Part shown: piece after piece, positions 5,785 to 43,230 of the stretch
Numbering within the stretch: position 1 is the first letter of the stretch
Layout of the letters: the number at the start of each line of letters is the position of its first letter
Notes under the pieces: model-generated
Database searches by the model: none
What the model was told of the DNA's origin: nothing
Seen by the model: the letters and a program-made list of their open reading frames with translations, nothing else
Position numbers and translations under genes: made by a program
From: Candidatus Woesearchaeota archaeon
GTDB taxonomy: Archaea; Nanobdellota; Nanobdellia; Woesearchaeales; UBA10216
Length of the DNA stretch: 64,000 bases
NCBI GenBank assembly: GCA_016185705.1
Contig: JACPMZ010000004.1
Coordinates: forward strand, 1-64,000
Direction of reading: 5' to 3'

Positions 5785-5927
5785 TGCAACTGGCTTTGCG
5801 CGTCGCTATTTAAAGTTTTTTCCTTGCCAAATCCGCCTCCCAAAAAGCATACCTTTTTATACCCTTAAAACTTCGTGTTTATCGTCGAGAAATCGGCTGT
5901 TTTTTACCGGAATTTTTGGTTGCGAAA

Positions 5928-8900
5928 ATGGACTCAAATCAGCCACAGGAGCAGCGAATTATCCAGAGGGAGATTGAGGAGGAGATGAAGGTCTCTTACC
6001 TTGATTATGCCATGTCTGTTCTTGTAAGCAGGGCTTTGCCTGACATCAGGGATGGGCTTAAGCCGGTTCAGAGAAGAATTCTTTACACCATGTTCCGGCT
6101 TGGCTTGCTTCACAACAAGGCGCATCGCAAGTCAGCAACTGTTGTTGGCAACACGATGGCCCGTTTTCATCCGCATGGCGATGCTGCTATTTATGATGCC
6201 CTGGTCAGGATGGCGCAGGATTTCTCTTTGCGTTATCCTCTGGTTGACGGGCAGGGGAATTGGGGTTGTTTTACTAAGGACACTAAAGTAAAATTAACAG
6301 ACGGCAGAGGCTTAAGCTTTGGAGAGCTTATTAAGGAACAAAGGGCTGGCAAAAGACACTGGACATTTACTTTCAATAATGAAGAAAAAAAGATTGAAAT
6401 TGCCGAAATCAAGAAGCCAAGGATGACTCGCAGGAACTCGGATTTAGTGGAAATTGAGCTTGATAATGGCGAGAAGATAAGATGTACGCCAGACCACAGG
6501 TTTATGCTGCGCAATGGTTCGTATAAGGAAGCTAAAGACCTGAAACCGAATGAATCCTTGATGCCTTTTTATTCTAAATTGTCTGATGGAGTTGAAGACA
6601 CGAATATGAAGAGTTATCTTTTGGTTCATCAGCCCTTTCAACATGAGTGGCAGTATGCTCACAGATTAGCTGACGAGTGGAATTTGCAAGCTAAAGTTTA
6701 CGATAAGGGTTCTGGTAGAATTAGGCATCATGTTGATATCAACAAGCTAAACAATAATCCTGACAATATTAAGAGATTGCATTGGAAGGAGCATTGGAAA
6801 ATTCATGCAGAGCTCGCTTCCTTCAGGCACAAGAATGATGCTGCGTATGTTAAAAAGCTGGCTGACGGTAGGAGGAAATATATAGAAAATAACAGGGAGA
6901 TTTTATCTAAGCGGGTTGTGAAGCTTAACAAAAAATTGTGGAAAAATTCTAAGTTCAGGGCTAGACAAACTGCTCGCTTAAATGCTCTAATGTATTTTGA
7001 TGATTTTCCGACGCTGGTTTCTGAAGCAAAAATCTACAATCACAAAGTTGTTAGTGTAACTTTTCTTGAACAAAAGGAGGACGTTTATGACATAACCGTA
7101 GTGCCACACCATAACTTTCTTCTCGCTGCCGGAGTATTCGTTCATAACTCTATCGACGGGGACCGTGCTGCCGCATTCAGATACACCGAGGCGCGCTTGC
7201 AGCGGCTTGCCGAGGAGCTGCTTGCGGACATAGACAAGGAAACTGTTGATTTTGTTCCTAATTTTGATGGCTCTGTTAAGGAGCCGGTTGTCATGCCTTC
7301 CAGGTTTCCGAATTTGCTGGTTAACGGCAGCTCAGGCATTGCTGTTGGGATGGCAACCAATATTCCTCCGCATAATCTGGGCGAGGTGACTGCTGCTGTG
7401 ATTTCTCGCATGGAAAACCCGGAGATTTCTTTGCAGGAGCTTATGAAGGTTTTGCCTGGCCCTGATTTTCCTACAGGCGGAATTATCAGCGGCAGCGCGG
7501 GGATTGCTGCTGCTTACAGCTCAGGCCGCGGGCTCATTAGGGTTCGCGCAAAGCATTCTGTTGAGACGATTAAGGGCCGCAGCCACATAGTTGTTACAGA
7601 GATTCCTTACATGGTCAACAAGTCTCTTTTGCTTGAGGAAGTTGCCGAGCTTATAAGGAGCAGGGTTATTCAGGACATAGCCGATATACGGGATGAGAGC
7701 GACAGGAACGGCATGCGCATTCTTTTTGAGCTGAAGAAAAATGCCAATGATGCTGTTGTTGCGAATCAGCTTTTTACGCATTCCCGGCTTGAGTCCACTG
7801 TTTCCATTGCCCTTATCGGGCTTGTTGATGCCACGCCCCGCACTTTAAGCCTGCTGCAGCTTCTTGACGGCTTTATCTCGCATCGCAAAAGCGTTGTTAC
7901 AAGGCGCGCTGAGTTTGAGCTCAGCAAAGCCGAGGATAGATTGCACATTGTTGAAGGGCTTATCAGGGCTTTAACCAGCATAGATGATGTTGTCAAGGCA
8001 ATAAAGCAGTCCAGGGATGCTGCTGCTGCTAAAGTTGCGCTTATGCAGGGCTTTTCTCTTTCTGAAAAGCAGTCTTTGGCTGTGCTGGATATGCGTCTTC
8101 AGAAGCTGTCTTCTCTCGAGCAGCAGTCGCTGAGAGATGAAAATTCCGGGCTTGTTCGCGTAATAGAGGAGCTTAAGGGAATTCTTGCTTCTCCGCAGAA
8201 AATTCTGGACATTATCAGGTCTGAGCTTCTTGAGATTAAGGAAAAGTTTGGTGATGAAAGGCGCACTGTTGTTGAGGAAGCTGCTGAGCAGGACTTTGTC
8301 CGCGAGGATTTGATTAAGCCGGAGGAGGTTGTTATCACTATTTCGCATTCCGGCTATGCCAAGCGAACTGCGGTTACTCATTACAGGCAGCAGCATCGCG
8401 GCGGCAAAGGAGTGATTGCAGCTTCTCCGAAGGAAGGAGATTTAATTGAGCACCTGTTTGTTGCAAACACTCATTCATACATCCTGTTTTTCACCAACCG
8501 CGGCATGGTGCACTGGCTAAAGGTGTTTGAGATTCCTGATGCCGGGCGCAACGCAAGAGGAAGGGCTATTGTTAACCTGCTCAATCTCGGCTCCGGCGAG
8601 GAAATAACCGCGTTTGTTCCTGTGATGGAATTCAATGGCAGCAGCTATTTGGTTATGGCTACGAAGAACGGCACGATAAAGAAAACCGAGCTTAAGGCTT
8701 ATTCCAATCCGCGCAGAGGCGGCATTATTGCCATTTCGCTGGAGGATGGCGATGAGCTGATTAGCGTGCGGATGACTGACGGCAGCAAGCAGATTATCCT
8801 CGCTACAAAAAACGGCCATGCAGTCAGGTTTAATGAGTCAGATATCAGGGATACCGGGCGTTCAGCCAAGGGCGTGCGTGGCATTAAATTAAGGGAGGAT

Positions 8901-9257
8901 GCTGTTGTTGGCATGGTTGTTGCAGAGGAAAATAAGAGCTTGCTGACAGTCTGTGAAAAGGGCTATGGCAAGCGCACTCCTGTTTCCGATTACCGGCTCA
9001 TCAGCCGCGGCGGCTTTGGAGTCATTAATATTCAGACTTCAGAACGCAATGGCAGGGTTGTCGGCATCGCTTCTGTAGCTGACGACGATGAGCTGGTGTT
9101 CATCAGCAGGCACGGCATTATGATTAGGGTTCCATCCAGAGACATTTCTGTCATAGGCAGGAACACCCAGGGTGCCAGAATTATGCGCCTTGCTCAGGAT
9201 GATTTTGTTGTTGCGGTTGCCAGGATTGTGAAGGAAAGCAGCAGCGTTCAAAATTAA
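5928..9257 (+). CDS. gyrA: DNA gyrase subunit A with in-frame intein
   Basis: The precursor is 1109 aa; removing the 294-aa intein leaves about 815 aa, normal for GyrA. N-terminal core: DYAMSVLVSRALPDIRDGLKPVQRRIL, HPHGDAAIYDALVRMAQDF and the catalytic Tyr in AAFRYTEARL just after the intein. The C-terminal beta-pinwheel carries the GyrA-box QQHRGGKG. Gyrase introduces negative supercoils together with GyrB, which is not in the window. ATG 5928 is preferred; TTG 5916 is in frame. A TTTTTATA box about 70 nt upstream would give a short leader. Confidence 0.95.
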   Translation: MDSNQPQEQRIIQREIEEEMKVSYLDYAMSVLVSRALPDIRDGLKPVQRRILYTMFRLGLLHNKAHRKSATVVGNTMARFHPHGDAAIYDALVRMAQDFSLRYPLVDGQGNWGCFTKDTKVKLTDGRGLSFGELIKEQRAGKRHWTFTFNNEEKKIEIAEIKKPRMTRRNSDLVEIELDNGEKIRCTPDHRFMLRNGSYKEAKDLKPNESLMPFYSKLSDGVEDTNMKSYLLVHQPFQHEWQYAHRLADEWNLQAKVYDKGSGRIRHHVDINKLNNNPDNIKRLHWKEHWKIHAELASFRHKNDAAYVKKLADGRRKYIENNREILSKRVVKLNKKLWKNSKFRARQTARLNALMYFDDFPTLVSEAKIYNHKVVSVTFLEQKEDVYDITVVPHHNFLLAAGVFVHNSIDGDRAAAFRYTEARLQRLAEELLADIDKETVDFVPNFDGSVKEPVVMPSRFPNLLVNGSSGIAVGMATNIPPHNLGEVTAAVISRMENPEISLQELMKVLPGPDFPTGGIISGSAGIAAAYSSGRGLIRVRAKHSVETIKGRSHIVVTEIPYMVNKSLLLEEVAELIRSRVIQDIADIRDESDRNGMRILFELKKNANDAVVANQLFTHSRLESTVSIALIGLVDATPRTLSLLQLLDGFISHRKSVVTRRAEFELSKAEDRLHIVEGLIRALTSIDDVVKAIKQSRDAAAAKVALMQGFSLSEKQSLAVLDMRLQKLSSLEQQSLRDENSGLVRVIEELKGILASPQKILDIIRSELLEIKEKFGDERRTVVEEAAEQDFVREDLIKPEEVVITISHSGYAKRTAVTHYRQQHRGGKGVIAASPKEGDLIEHLFVANTHSYILFFTNRGMVHWLKVFEIPDAGRNARGRAIVNLLNLGSGEEITAFVPVMEFNGSSYLVMATKNGTIKKTELKAYSNPRRGGIIAISLEDGDELISVRMTDGSKQIILATKNGHAVRFNESDIRDTGRSAKGVRGIKLREDAVVGMVVAEENKSLLTVCEKGYGKRTPVSDYRLISRGGFGVINIQTSERNGRVVGIASVADDDELVFISRHGIMIRVPSRDISVIGRNTQGARIMRLAQDDFVVAVARIVKESSSVQN
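6267..7148 (+). other. GyrA intein with HNH endonuclease
   Basis: Protein-splicing element of 294 residues, between VDGQGNWG and SIDGDRAAA of GyrA. It begins with Cys1 (CFTKDTKVKLTDG, block A). Block B is IRCTPDHRFML with the Thr and His of TPDH. It ends with VYDITVVPHHNFLLAAGVFVHN and the +1 Ser of the extein. The middle has an HNH-type homing endonuclease pattern (HHVDINKLNNNPDNIKRL, then WKEHWKIH) rather than LAGLIDADG. All splicing residues are present, so splicing should be efficient. Confidence 0.92.
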
Positions 9258-14816: not shown

Positions 14817-14909
14817 GGAATATGAGTCCAGCAGCGCTTTTTCTATTTAATTTTAGTGTTTTTGTAAAGTAAGCTTTCCAATGGCAACCTGCCCTGCTTC
14901 TGTCCGGGA

Positions 14910-14955
14910 GCTTTATTTTCCCCTCCCTTAATTTCAGGGGATGGGAAAATAAAGC
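14910..14955. repeat. palindrome P2
   Basis: GCTTTATTTTCCCCTCCC (14910-14927) pairs with GGGATGGGAAAATAAAGC (14938-14955) with one mismatch. Confidence 0.8.
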
Positions 14956-15070
14956 GCAAAGAGAGTTGCGAAGCCATTGGAAACCTTACATAACAGTTTT
15001 TTTTGGCAATGTCAGCTTTTGTGTGTTCCGCTGCCAGATTTTTACTCCCTCCCCCGCAACCATAATTCTT

Positions 15071-15232: not shown

Positions 15233-18076
15233 ATGGCTCGCTCTAAAAATGTGCACACTAAATCGGCAGCGCCTGATTCTGTGAGCAAGGCAATTTTAAT
15301 TGCATCAGCTGTTGGAGTTGGCATAGCCCTTTTTTACATAATGGGCGGCCCTCCCTTCATCGGGCTTGTCACTGACTCTGCAGGCAATTTAGTCAGCCCA
15401 TGCCCTGATATTGGCGATGTCAACGGCGATGGAAAAATGACTTTTGGCGATGCCATTAAGGTTGAATTGAACGTCTCAGGTTCTGCTCCCTTGACAGCTG
15501 CCGAGGCAGCGAGGGCTGATGTGAATAATGATGGGAAAATATCTGCTGCTGATGTTGACGTTATCAACGGCTACGTCTCAGGCGCACTGACCACTCTTTC
15601 AGCTTGTGTAAATACAAAGCCTTTGCGGTGCTCCAGTTTCGGCGATATTGACGGCAACAAGCGCATCTCAAATGCTGATTTGTCTTTGCTGCAGTCTTTC
15701 GTAAACGGCAAAGGCAGTCTTACTGCTTCCCAGAAAATACTTGCTGATGTTAATAGCGATGGGAAAATAGATTTTGGTGATGTGGGTCTCATGGTTAATC
15801 ATTTGCAGTTTTCTGATGAATTTCCTGTGTGCGCAGCATCAGGGAGTGTTCCGTGCTCTGATTTCGGTGACATTAACACTGATAGAGTTATCAATTACAA
15901 AGACCTTGCCCTTATTGCGCAGCACTTAAGCGGCCAGTCTGTTCTTACTGCCAAGCAGATTGGCGATGCTGACGTTGACGGCAGCGGCGCTGTGTCATAC
16001 GGGGATGCATTGGCTGTTGCTGCTGTTGCATCAGGCCGGTCAAGCACTTTTTCTGTTTGTGCCAGTCCTGCCGCAGCTGGTGCGGGCAAGGTTTCGCCTT
16101 GTTCTGGTTTTGGTGATGTGGATGGTGATGGTGTTGTTTCTGTTGCTGATTCTGATTTGATTAGTAAGTTTGTTTCCAAGTTGGTTACGCTTTCGGCTGA
16201 TCAGAAGTTGAGGGCTGATGTGAGTGGCAATGGTGTGGTTGATGTTTATGATGGCTTATACGTTAAGCAGTATGTTGAAGGTGTGAGGGATTCTTTTGCT
16301 GTTTGTCCTGTTCCTGCTTCGGGTGGTGTGGGTAAGGTTTCGCCTTGTTCTGGTTTTGGTGATGTGGATGGTGATGGTGTTGTTTCTGTTGCTGATTCTG
16401 ATTTGATTAGTAAGTTTGTTGCTGGGCAGGTTGTGTTTTCGGCTGATCAGAAGTTGAGGGCTGATGTGAGTGGGGATGGTGTTGTTTCTGTTACTGATGC
16501 TTTGTTTGTTCAGCAGTTTGTTGGGGGTTTGAGGGATTCTTTTGCTGTTTGTCCTGTTCCTGCTCCGGGTGCTTCTGGAGGCAAAGCTTCTCCCTGCTTG
16601 AGTTTCGGAGACGTTAACGGAGACGGAGTGGTCAGCGCTGAGGATGCTGATTTAATCAGTAAGTTTGTGGATGGCACTGGCCAGATTCCTTCAGGCAGGC
16701 ACCAGTGGGCTGATGTCAGCAATGACGGCACCATCAACAATGCCGACGTTACAGCCATTAATAATTTCCTGAATGGCATTACTCCTATTTTCGGTGTTTG
16801 CAAGGTTGTTAAGGAATTGGTTTGCAGTAATTACGGTGATGTTGATGCGAACGGCTTTATTTCATCTGCTGATGCGTCTGCTGTCAGCAGGCACATTTCC
16901 GGACAGGCTCTTTTGTCAGAAGCGTTGCAGAAGCGCGCAGACGTGAATAATGACGGGGTTATTAATCAGGATGACAGCGTTGCCATCATACAGATGTCTC
17001 AGGGCGCCGAGAAAACCTTTAGCATTTGCCCATTTAATGGCAGAGAATCTGATGTAGGCACTAATTTTGGCGCTCTTCAGCTTAAGATAGGTGATAAAGC
17101 GCCTGATGCCCGGCCAAAGGGCGTTGCAAAAGTCAGGTTTGAGGATAATTCCAAGCCGATAATTGAGTTTAATCATGATTTTGACAAGTCCCAGCTCAGG
17201 GTCACAACAATCAGGGTGGAGAAGCAGCTTACCGGCAGCGGCAGGTCATTGCTTTGGGTTAAGGGCATGGATTTGCAGGGCACAAAAACTGTGTATTTGG
17301 AAAAGATTAAGGCGGGCAACGCTGTCTGCATTCTGGATGCTGAGCTTAATGATTTGTCTTCAGTGACAGATGATTGCTCCGGTGCAGGTGAAAAGCTTGT
17401 GGCATGCAATGGCGCAAGCCACGACGGCTATGTCTGCGCAAGCGAATCAGACTCATTTAAGGTTTCCGGACTGTCGCATTCAGTGGTGTTTGAGTCAGAT
17501 GTTCCTGCGCCTGCTCCAGCTGGCAGCGGCGACACCGGCGGTCGTGGCGGTGGCAGCGGCTCTGTCGGCAAATTCTATACCATGCTTGCGGATTCGGAAA
17601 ACTTTCATGTTAGGGAGAGGGATGCGATTACAGTTAACTTTGAGGGGCAGGCTTACAGGTTTACCGTAACTGACATTTCCTCGTCAGTTACCCTTACGCT
17701 TACTCCAGGCACCATCCAGTATGAGCTTAAGCAGGGCTTTAACCGCATTGATTTGAATAAGGACGGTCAGGCAGACATTCGGATAAGGGCAGCTATTCTG
17801 ATCCCTTACCTTGACGCAACTTTGAGGTTTGAATTGATTAAGGAAGCTGCCGCCGACATTACGCCGCCAATAAGACCTGCGCCGCCCGCAGTGGATGCTC
17901 CTCAGCAGGTTCCTGTAAGTGTTTCAGACATTTCAGATGAACCCCAGCCGCTTCTGCCCAAGCCCAAGAAGCTGCATGTGCTGTACACAGGCATACTCGT
18001 CCTGATAGTAGCAGCATTCTTCGGATTCGTTGCTTGGAGGCGCTACAAATCTGAAGAAATAATCTATGGGCCGTGA
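15233..18076 (+). CDS. cell-surface protein with seven dockerin units
   Basis: 947 aa. An N-terminal anchor helix (AILIASAVGVGIALFYIMGG) is followed by seven tandem type-I dockerin-like units of about 70-80 aa, roughly residues 55-600. Each has two EF-hand-like calcium loops (GDVDGDG and ADVSGDG types) and is bracketed by Cys (CxxFGD ... FxVC), suggesting one disulphide per unit. A beta-rich domain, a Gly-rich linker, a Pro-rich stalk and a C-terminal helix (ILVLIVAAFFGFVAW) follow. Dockerins normally bind cohesins; no cohesin is in the window. Seven units in one protein is unusual. Units 4 and 5 are near-identical. Confidence 0.85.
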   Translation: MARSKNVHTKSAAPDSVSKAILIASAVGVGIALFYIMGGPPFIGLVTDSAGNLVSPCPDIGDVNGDGKMTFGDAIKVELNVSGSAPLTAAEAARADVNNDGKISAADVDVINGYVSGALTTLSACVNTKPLRCSSFGDIDGNKRISNADLSLLQSFVNGKGSLTASQKILADVNSDGKIDFGDVGLMVNHLQFSDEFPVCAASGSVPCSDFGDINTDRVINYKDLALIAQHLSGQSVLTAKQIGDADVDGSGAVSYGDALAVAAVASGRSSTFSVCASPAAAGAGKVSPCSGFGDVDGDGVVSVADSDLISKFVSKLVTLSADQKLRADVSGNGVVDVYDGLYVKQYVEGVRDSFAVCPVPASGGVGKVSPCSGFGDVDGDGVVSVADSDLISKFVAGQVVFSADQKLRADVSGDGVVSVTDALFVQQFVGGLRDSFAVCPVPAPGASGGKASPCLSFGDVNGDGVVSAEDADLISKFVDGTGQIPSGRHQWADVSNDGTINNADVTAINNFLNGITPIFGVCKVVKELVCSNYGDVDANGFISSADASAVSRHISGQALLSEALQKRADVNNDGVINQDDSVAIIQMSQGAEKTFSICPFNGRESDVGTNFGALQLKIGDKAPDARPKGVAKVRFEDNSKPIIEFNHDFDKSQLRVTTIRVEKQLTGSGRSLLWVKGMDLQGTKTVYLEKIKAGNAVCILDAELNDLSSVTDDCSGAGEKLVACNGASHDGYVCASESDSFKVSGLSHSVVFESDVPAPAPAGSGDTGGRGGGSGSVGKFYTMLADSENFHVRERDAITVNFEGQAYRFTVTDISSSVTLTLTPGTIQYELKQGFNRIDLNKDGQADIRIRAAILIPYLDATLRFELIKEAAADITPPIRPAPPAVDAPQQVPVSVSDISDEPQPLLPKPKKLHVLYTGILVLIVAAFFGFVAWRRYKSEEIIYGP
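16085..16578 (+). repeat. 246-bp tandem duplication in dockerin gene
   Basis: Units 4 and 5 repeat with a period of 246 bp (82 codons), starting at about 16085 and 16331. The DNA is nearly identical in the first two thirds and strongly G/T-rich on the plus strand, unlike the neighbouring units. This indicates recent duplication or gene conversion. Confidence 0.8.
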
Positions 18077-40642: not shown

Positions 40643-40812
40643 CGCTGCTTTTTTACTCCCTTAACTTTCAGTGCCTCAGCAACAGGACTTTTTCCTCCGC
40701 GCTCTATTTCCACTTCCCCCGAAATTAAGGGAGGCGGAAACAGAGCGCGGTGAGGGCAGCTTGGCTGCTTGCGGAGATACTGAAGTTTGCGAAAGGAGGG
40801 AAAAAAGCAGCG
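40643..40812. repeat. palindrome P9, interrupted outer copy
   Basis: Left half CGCTGCTTTTTTACTCCC plus TTAACTTTC (40643-40669); right half GAAAGGAGGGAAAAAAGCAG plus CG (40791-40812). About 120 bp, including a second palindrome, split its loop. Confidence 0.8.
40697..40750. repeat. palindrome P10, nested in P9
   Basis: CCGCGCTCTATTTCCACTTC plus CC pairs with 40729-40750 with three mismatches. Followed by the GAGGGCAGCTTGGCTGCTTG flank. Confidence 0.8.
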
Positions 40813-43019: not shown

Positions 43020-43117
43020 TGCTGTGGGCAACTTTTTGAGTTTATTTAAATATTTGCTTTGCGTGGTAATGTCAAGTTGTGTGTCCTGCGCTCCTGAGCT
43101 TGCCGATGCCTGCTTGG

Positions 43118-43167
43118 CTGATTTTTTTCTCCCCCTTTATTTTTTAAGGGGGGGAGAAAAAAATCAG
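43118..43167. repeat. palindrome P11
   Basis: CTGATTTTTTTCTCCCCCTT pairs with AAGGGGGGGAGAAAAAAATC plus AG; two extra G in one arm. Confidence 0.82.
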
Positions 43168-43230
43168 AGCAGTGTGCGACGGTTTTGCCACTTAACTTGA
43201 CATTACCGCTTTGCGTTATGTCATATTGAA

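Follow-up and report, generated by a model that had tools for sequence, protein, structure and literature searches.

Introduction

Prokaryotic MITEs are short, non-coding elements that carry the inverted ends of full-length insertion sequences, are flanked by target duplications and occur in many intergenic copies (PMC10969869), and the elements described here share these traits. Unlike those MITEs, however, ours share one type of long central palindrome across three or four groups whose ends are unrelated. For the ISH3 family, the part of the published description available to us gives Y-2-R-3-E-3-R as the transposase motif and target duplications typically of 5 bp (PMC2266710). The elements of this study resemble that family in having a DDE transposase with this motif, an archaeal host and full-length copies of 1224-1412 bp; target duplications are likewise short in the MITEs, mostly of 5-7 bp. 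They differ from it in their CAGTATCTCCG ends, in transposase scores well under the curated cut-off and in that the MITE at our locus lacks a transposase gene; furthermore, placement upstream of promoters, which is strong here, is not mentioned for ISH3 in the available part of that source.

Insertion sequences that target REP palindromes, such as IS1397, IS621, ISPpu9 and ISRm22, have been described (PMC1525189). They share with our locus a mobile element lodged in a dispersed intergenic palindrome, for some of them at the palindrome axis; but while 100% of the copies of the type 1 elements in that work lie at one REP point, insertion into a hairpin was the exception in our case.

TnGBS, ISLre2 and ISKra4 enter bacterial DNA 15-17 bp ahead of the -35 box of sigma-A promoters, and tethering to the initiation complex, as of the Ty3 integrase to TFIIIB, was proposed to account for it; with respect to archaea, the accessible text notes only the AT-rich target of ISH6 (PMC3942029). 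These elements and ours are alike as DDE elements at a fixed distance upstream of a promoter, a similarity of function and not of membership, since TnGBS-type elements combine Mutator-type transposases with bacterial promoters, whereas here ISH3-like transposases go with archaeal BRE/TATA sequences. The three transposases that we scanned matched DDE_Tnp_1 and ISH3-like models and not the Mutator-type (p-MULT) transposase of TnGBS-type elements. The fixed-distance habit is thus known in a few bacterial transposons; our search of the literature, with most subscription journals outside its reach, found no report of it for archaea.

The nested site

The window, that is, the whole stretch of 64,000 nucleotides that was analyzed, belongs to a genome of 1.23 Mb (G000) and contains a palindrome, P10 (40697-40750), inside another, P9. 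The outer arms of P9 (40643-40662 and 40793-40812) are 20 nt long, 85% complementary and exact over the first 12 positions, with 130 nt between them. Exact 12-mer inverted pairs separated by no more than 200 nt numbered 82 in the window vs 0-5 in 20 dinucleotide shuffles, and those at a separation of 100-200 nt numbered 5 vs 0-4; taken alone, the wide arm pairing of P9 is only suggestive of a split hairpin. Without the insert, P9 aligned over its full length to dozens of intact hairpin copies from the same genome. The split is therefore real, because both halves are halves of a known hairpin type. The sequence-only reading, which described an insert of about 120 bp with P10 and its flanks between two P9 halves that still match each other, was right on both points, and the insert resolves into a 114-bp element plus 6 bp of duplicated target.

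The left half of P9 (40643-40668; the hairpin features are given without strand) comprises the arm CGCTGCTTTTTTACTCCCTT and the beginning of the loop, AACTTT (40663-40668), the left target copy. The right target copy, AAGTTT (40783-40788), is identical to it at 5/6 positions and precedes the right half, GCGAAAGGAGGGAAAAAAGCAGCG (40789-40812). The insertion borders could thus be set at 40669/40782, with an imperfect target duplication. Excising the 114-bp element together with one 6-bp target copy restored a hairpin of 50 bp, the median length of the family; as removal of anything from 4 to 8 bp also gave a good hairpin, the length of the duplication is only approximate. The flank inverted-repeat score of P9 was 12.9, above the 99th percentile of shuffled pairs (11.5).

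The inserted element (40669-40782, + strand) was delimited by an inverted-end search, by its fold and by a second copy at G000:C7:141687-141808, where the inner unit's own flanks were found again. Its left terminal inverted repeat, CAGTGCCTCAGCAA (40669-40682, + strand), has 3 mismatches to the consensus CAGTATCTCCGCAA, and this implies that the insertion is old; the right one, which reads TTGCGGAGATACTG on the + strand (40769-40782, - strand), has 0 mismatches. Between them lie a small left hairpin, AGGACTTTTTCCT (40684-40696), the central hairpin P10 and a small right hairpin, GGCAGCTTGGCTGCT (40755-40769), and in the fold of the single strand the ends pair as a closed stem bearing these three hairpins. 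No ORF of at least 80 aa overlaps the element, a short, non-coding MITE with no transposase gene.

P9 occupies the gap between convergent glycosyltransferase and methyltransferase genes. With regard to a possible role as terminators, the hairpins of the window lie mostly between divergent or co-directional genes, and P9 was the only one seen between convergent ones. A scan of genome contigs with this methyltransferase as query found no relatives. In another genome of the genus (G001) the genes around the site are syntenic and in the same order, but the 3' end of the glycosyltransferase gene overlaps that of the methyltransferase gene, and no hairpin separates the two. This locus agrees with the absence of both P9 and P10; since the whole hairpin and its insert are missing, the genes overlap and no intermediate with P9 alone is present, it is not a clean pre-insertion allele.

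The two palindromes belong to different types of a broad hairpin family: P9 is of type A (CGCTGCTTTTTTCCCTCCC...) and P10 of type B (GCGCTCTATTTCC...). Scanning stretches of the genome gave at least 113 hairpins of this family, and a covariance model at least 150 strand-wise matches. Among 28 relatives, strand-wise matches were obtained in G001 (34), G002 (21) and G007 (2, both weak), so that the family is essentially confined to the genus. A REP/REPIN-RAYT identity was considered and rejected, as no Y1 transposase (PF01797) match was present in G000; G001 had one such match.

Relatives of the inserted MITE

The end motif CAGTATCTCCGC, with up to one mismatch, occurs at 45 sites in the 1.23-Mb genome, compared with 1 for a reversed-pattern control. 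Complete ISH3-type MITEs (20 in total) have three forms: 73 bp without a central hairpin, about 105-124 bp with one, and about 180 bp with a type A hairpin inside a type B stem. Seven of the 20 are abutted by exact target duplications of 5-7 bp (ACAAA, ATTGT, GGATAA, TGCCATT, AACCC, GTTGT and CGGCAA), to be set beside the 5/6 bases at P10. A strict 5-bp alignment, which undercounts duplications longer than 5 bp, gave 4 vs 0.2 in permutations.

The 73-bp copies (L062, L066, L072, L038, L064) and the 124-bp copies (L054, L067, L069, L070, L074, L125) are otherwise near-identical and differ by one 51-bp central hairpin at one exact point, with CGC repeats on each side; such pairs with and without the hairpin occur in more than one right-arm sequence variant. 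This pattern would correspond to a recurrent precise loss or gain, and loss by slippage fits as well as gain. Other MITE-like elements (L029 2088-2221, L071 1259-1392, L139 389-522 and window 14863-14995) have different ends, either TATTGAAAAGTTCAC or TGTAAAGTAAGC/TGTTATGTAAGG, and their central palindrome is again of the CCCTCCCTTAA type, so that this type is common to three or four unrelated MITE groups.

The CAGTATCTCCG ends of the P10 MITE are also those of four full-length, transposase-encoding elements found elsewhere in the order: L080 (1224 bp), L258 (1255 bp), L265 (1246 bp) and L090 (1412 bp). Target duplications of these elements were TTAAA at L090 and no more than 3 bp at L265, with none clear at L080 and L258. 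The transposases of L080, L090 and the related L112 matched DDE_Tnp_1, and their best NCBIfam match was ISH3 (NF033541; E 1e-27 to 1e-29), with 95-102 bits against a cut-off of 225; because these scores fall under the curated cut-off, we call the elements ISH3-like and not ISH3. The Y-2-R-3-E-3-R motif was present in 5/5 transposases. A search for an ISH3-type transposase in G000, G001 and G002 found none, and the MITE copies in G000 may therefore be stranded.

Origin of the nested site

We propose that P9 was an older dispersed 50-bp hairpin repeat, lying in the gap between two convergent genes, and that a putative ISH3-like DDE transposase recognizing CAGTATCTCCG ends mobilized the 114-bp non-autonomous MITE in trans; the MITE would have entered the P9 loop by a staggered cut that duplicated about 6 bp. 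We give this reading a probability of roughly 90%. It builds on the P9 halves, the transposon ends, the approximate target duplication and the many paralogues with the same ends and with duplications, and also on autonomous relatives in the order that share these ends and on the same-genus genome with nothing at the site. The ISH3-like transposase is the presumed mover, and the way in which the hairpin loop was chosen can be suggested from the promoter data presented below.

The presence of two long palindromes with similar cores might suggest that a single palindrome was duplicated or inverted locally to give P9 and P10. Yet the inner hairpin differs in type from the outer one (GCGCTCTATTTCC vs CGCTGCTTTTTT), and the flanks and ends of the inner unit recur at unrelated loci; simple local duplication, which the sequence-only reading had named as what would overturn an insertion, is excluded in practice.

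The same reading had taken the site as direct evidence that the palindromes themselves move as units and preferentially enter the core of a sister element. It was correct in that a unit moved, as the inserted piece is bounded by transposon ends, is flanked by a target duplication and has relatives elsewhere in the genome that share its ends; but the moving unit is the MITE, and P10 is only its central arm, so the palindrome family as such is not what moved. Mobile palindromes preferring sister cores would fit the type A hairpins found centrally in the type B stems of L020, L022, L030, L034, L038, L041 and L047, some of them flanked on either side by GTTATT-like repeats, as well as the presence or absence of the 51-bp hairpin at a single precise point of the ISH3-type MITEs (73/124 bp) and the sequence CTCC(C)TTAAC(C)TT found next to the same end of P10, L022 and L061. 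However, the A-in-B copies share one architecture and may be one ancestral event copied on, slippage deletion between the bounding CGC repeats explains the forms with and without hairpin equally well, and no target duplications flank the 37 hairpins that lack a recognized MITE (the longest repeat averages 3.05 vs 2.90 in permuted pairs). MITEs are, in addition, far commoner at promoters than in hairpins. This alternative is thus very improbable. As for nested copies, among the 20 complete MITEs only that of P10 is flanked left and right by hairpin halves that clearly pair; L073, whose flank score reaches the 99th percentile but which lacks a target duplication, is a weak case, and in L022 and L061 only one flank has the half-hairpin CTCC(C)TTAACCTT. 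A preference for sister cores is accordingly not the rule: there are one clear case and a few weak ones, and the commonest target is the promoter.

Placement upstream of archaeal promoters

The insertion of a MITE into a hairpin is an ordinary event, but tracing the nested palindromes led to a second pattern: in many genomes, elements that differ in their ends lie at a fixed distance upstream of archaeal promoters. In this genome, 8/45 ISH3-type ends have a TATA-like motif 14-16 bp outward, whereas the 3-bp bins at greater distances hold 0.29 on average (p about 5e-10), and in other genomes of the order the motif is found at 13-17 bp from 24/44 ends, where 0.5 was expected per bin (p about 3e-35); as not all copies are independent, these promoter-spacing p-values are guides. 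The full-length L080 is among the elements placed in this way. Random intergenic points gave about 0.9% per bin and no peak. Ahead of the TATA-like box, offsets 9-11 are A-rich, as in a BRE, and an outward ORF start was found in 30/35 cases, at a median of 30 bp past the box. Such short distances from box to start are expected for leaderless archaeal genes. The elements are therefore placed directly in front of core promoters, with roughly 45 bp between them and the start codon.

Across the order, then, ISH3-like elements lie most often 14-16 bp upstream of a TATA-like box. This spacing could reflect survival only, random insertions nearer to the promoter having been lost by selection, and it is true that insertions in core promoters or genes would be harmful and that the copies stand just outside the BRE-like position. 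Selection alone, however, predicts a broad spread past 14 bp, and not a peak that is missing from random intergenic points, recurs in other genomes of the order and, for the unrelated 143-bp MITE described below, places 24 ends at 14-16 bp, whereas the 3-bp bins from 20 to 61 hold 0.57 on average. We consider survival alone unlikely. Most likely, the transposase is tethered to, or recognizes, the BRE/TATA (TBP-TFB) promoter complex.

The P9 loop would then be an off-target site, perhaps aided by the BRE-like GCGAAAGG at the usual offset. When the P10 flanks were scored with promoter weights, the pre-TATA part of the right flank was in the top 1% of window positions, which, with two ends tested, is only a hint. 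A broader proposal, for which we see the chances as even, is that at least two unrelated archaeal DDE groups (the ISH3-like one and that of the MITE with 9-bp duplications) evolved TBP-TFB-tethered integration, with the hairpin loop and its BRE-like sequence acting as a decoy for the same machinery. Such tethering might be regarded as the archaeal counterpart of Ty3/TFIIIB and TnGBS/sigma-A targeting. If the spacing does reflect tethering, archaeal transposases would have TBP/TFB or some other promoter-bound factor as a partner, the insertions would provide a natural record of active promoter positions in uncultured DPANN genomes, and the spread of elements in gene-dense genomes without gene breakage would be explained.

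A second MITE and other features of the window

A second MITE of 143 bp, with GGTAATGTCAAGTT ends and unrelated to the ISH3-type MITEs, is located at window positions 43065-43207, between target copies of GCTTTGCGT (43056-43064 and 43208-43216), and has about 38 copies in the genome. Exact duplications of 8-9 bp flank 19/38 copies. A TATA-like box lies 14-16 bp from 24/76 of its ends (p about 3e-32 relative to the 20-61 bins), and 25/38 copies have the motif at 11-17 bp on one side. This MITE resembles IS1 in its 9-bp duplications and in its ends of the GGTAATG type, but an IS1 identity was rejected, as no PF03400 transposase match was obtained in 21 genomes. Six of the 38 copies (L038, L041, L060, L066, L069, L071) are no more than 15 bp away from an end of an ISH3-type MITE, and in several of them the 9-bp target directly abuts that end. 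Targeting of sister elements was considered for this adjacency and set aside, as most of it follows from the two MITEs sharing their preferred position in front of a given promoter.

Elsewhere in the window, the gene for an archaeal DNA gyrase subunit A (5916-9254) is split by an intein (Intein_splicing, E 7e-25); among named sequences, the GyrA protein was closest (60%) to that of a Candidatus Woesearchaeota MAG. In addition, positions 15233-18073 of this Woesearchaeota genome encode a protein of 947 aa with repeated dockerin type I domains.
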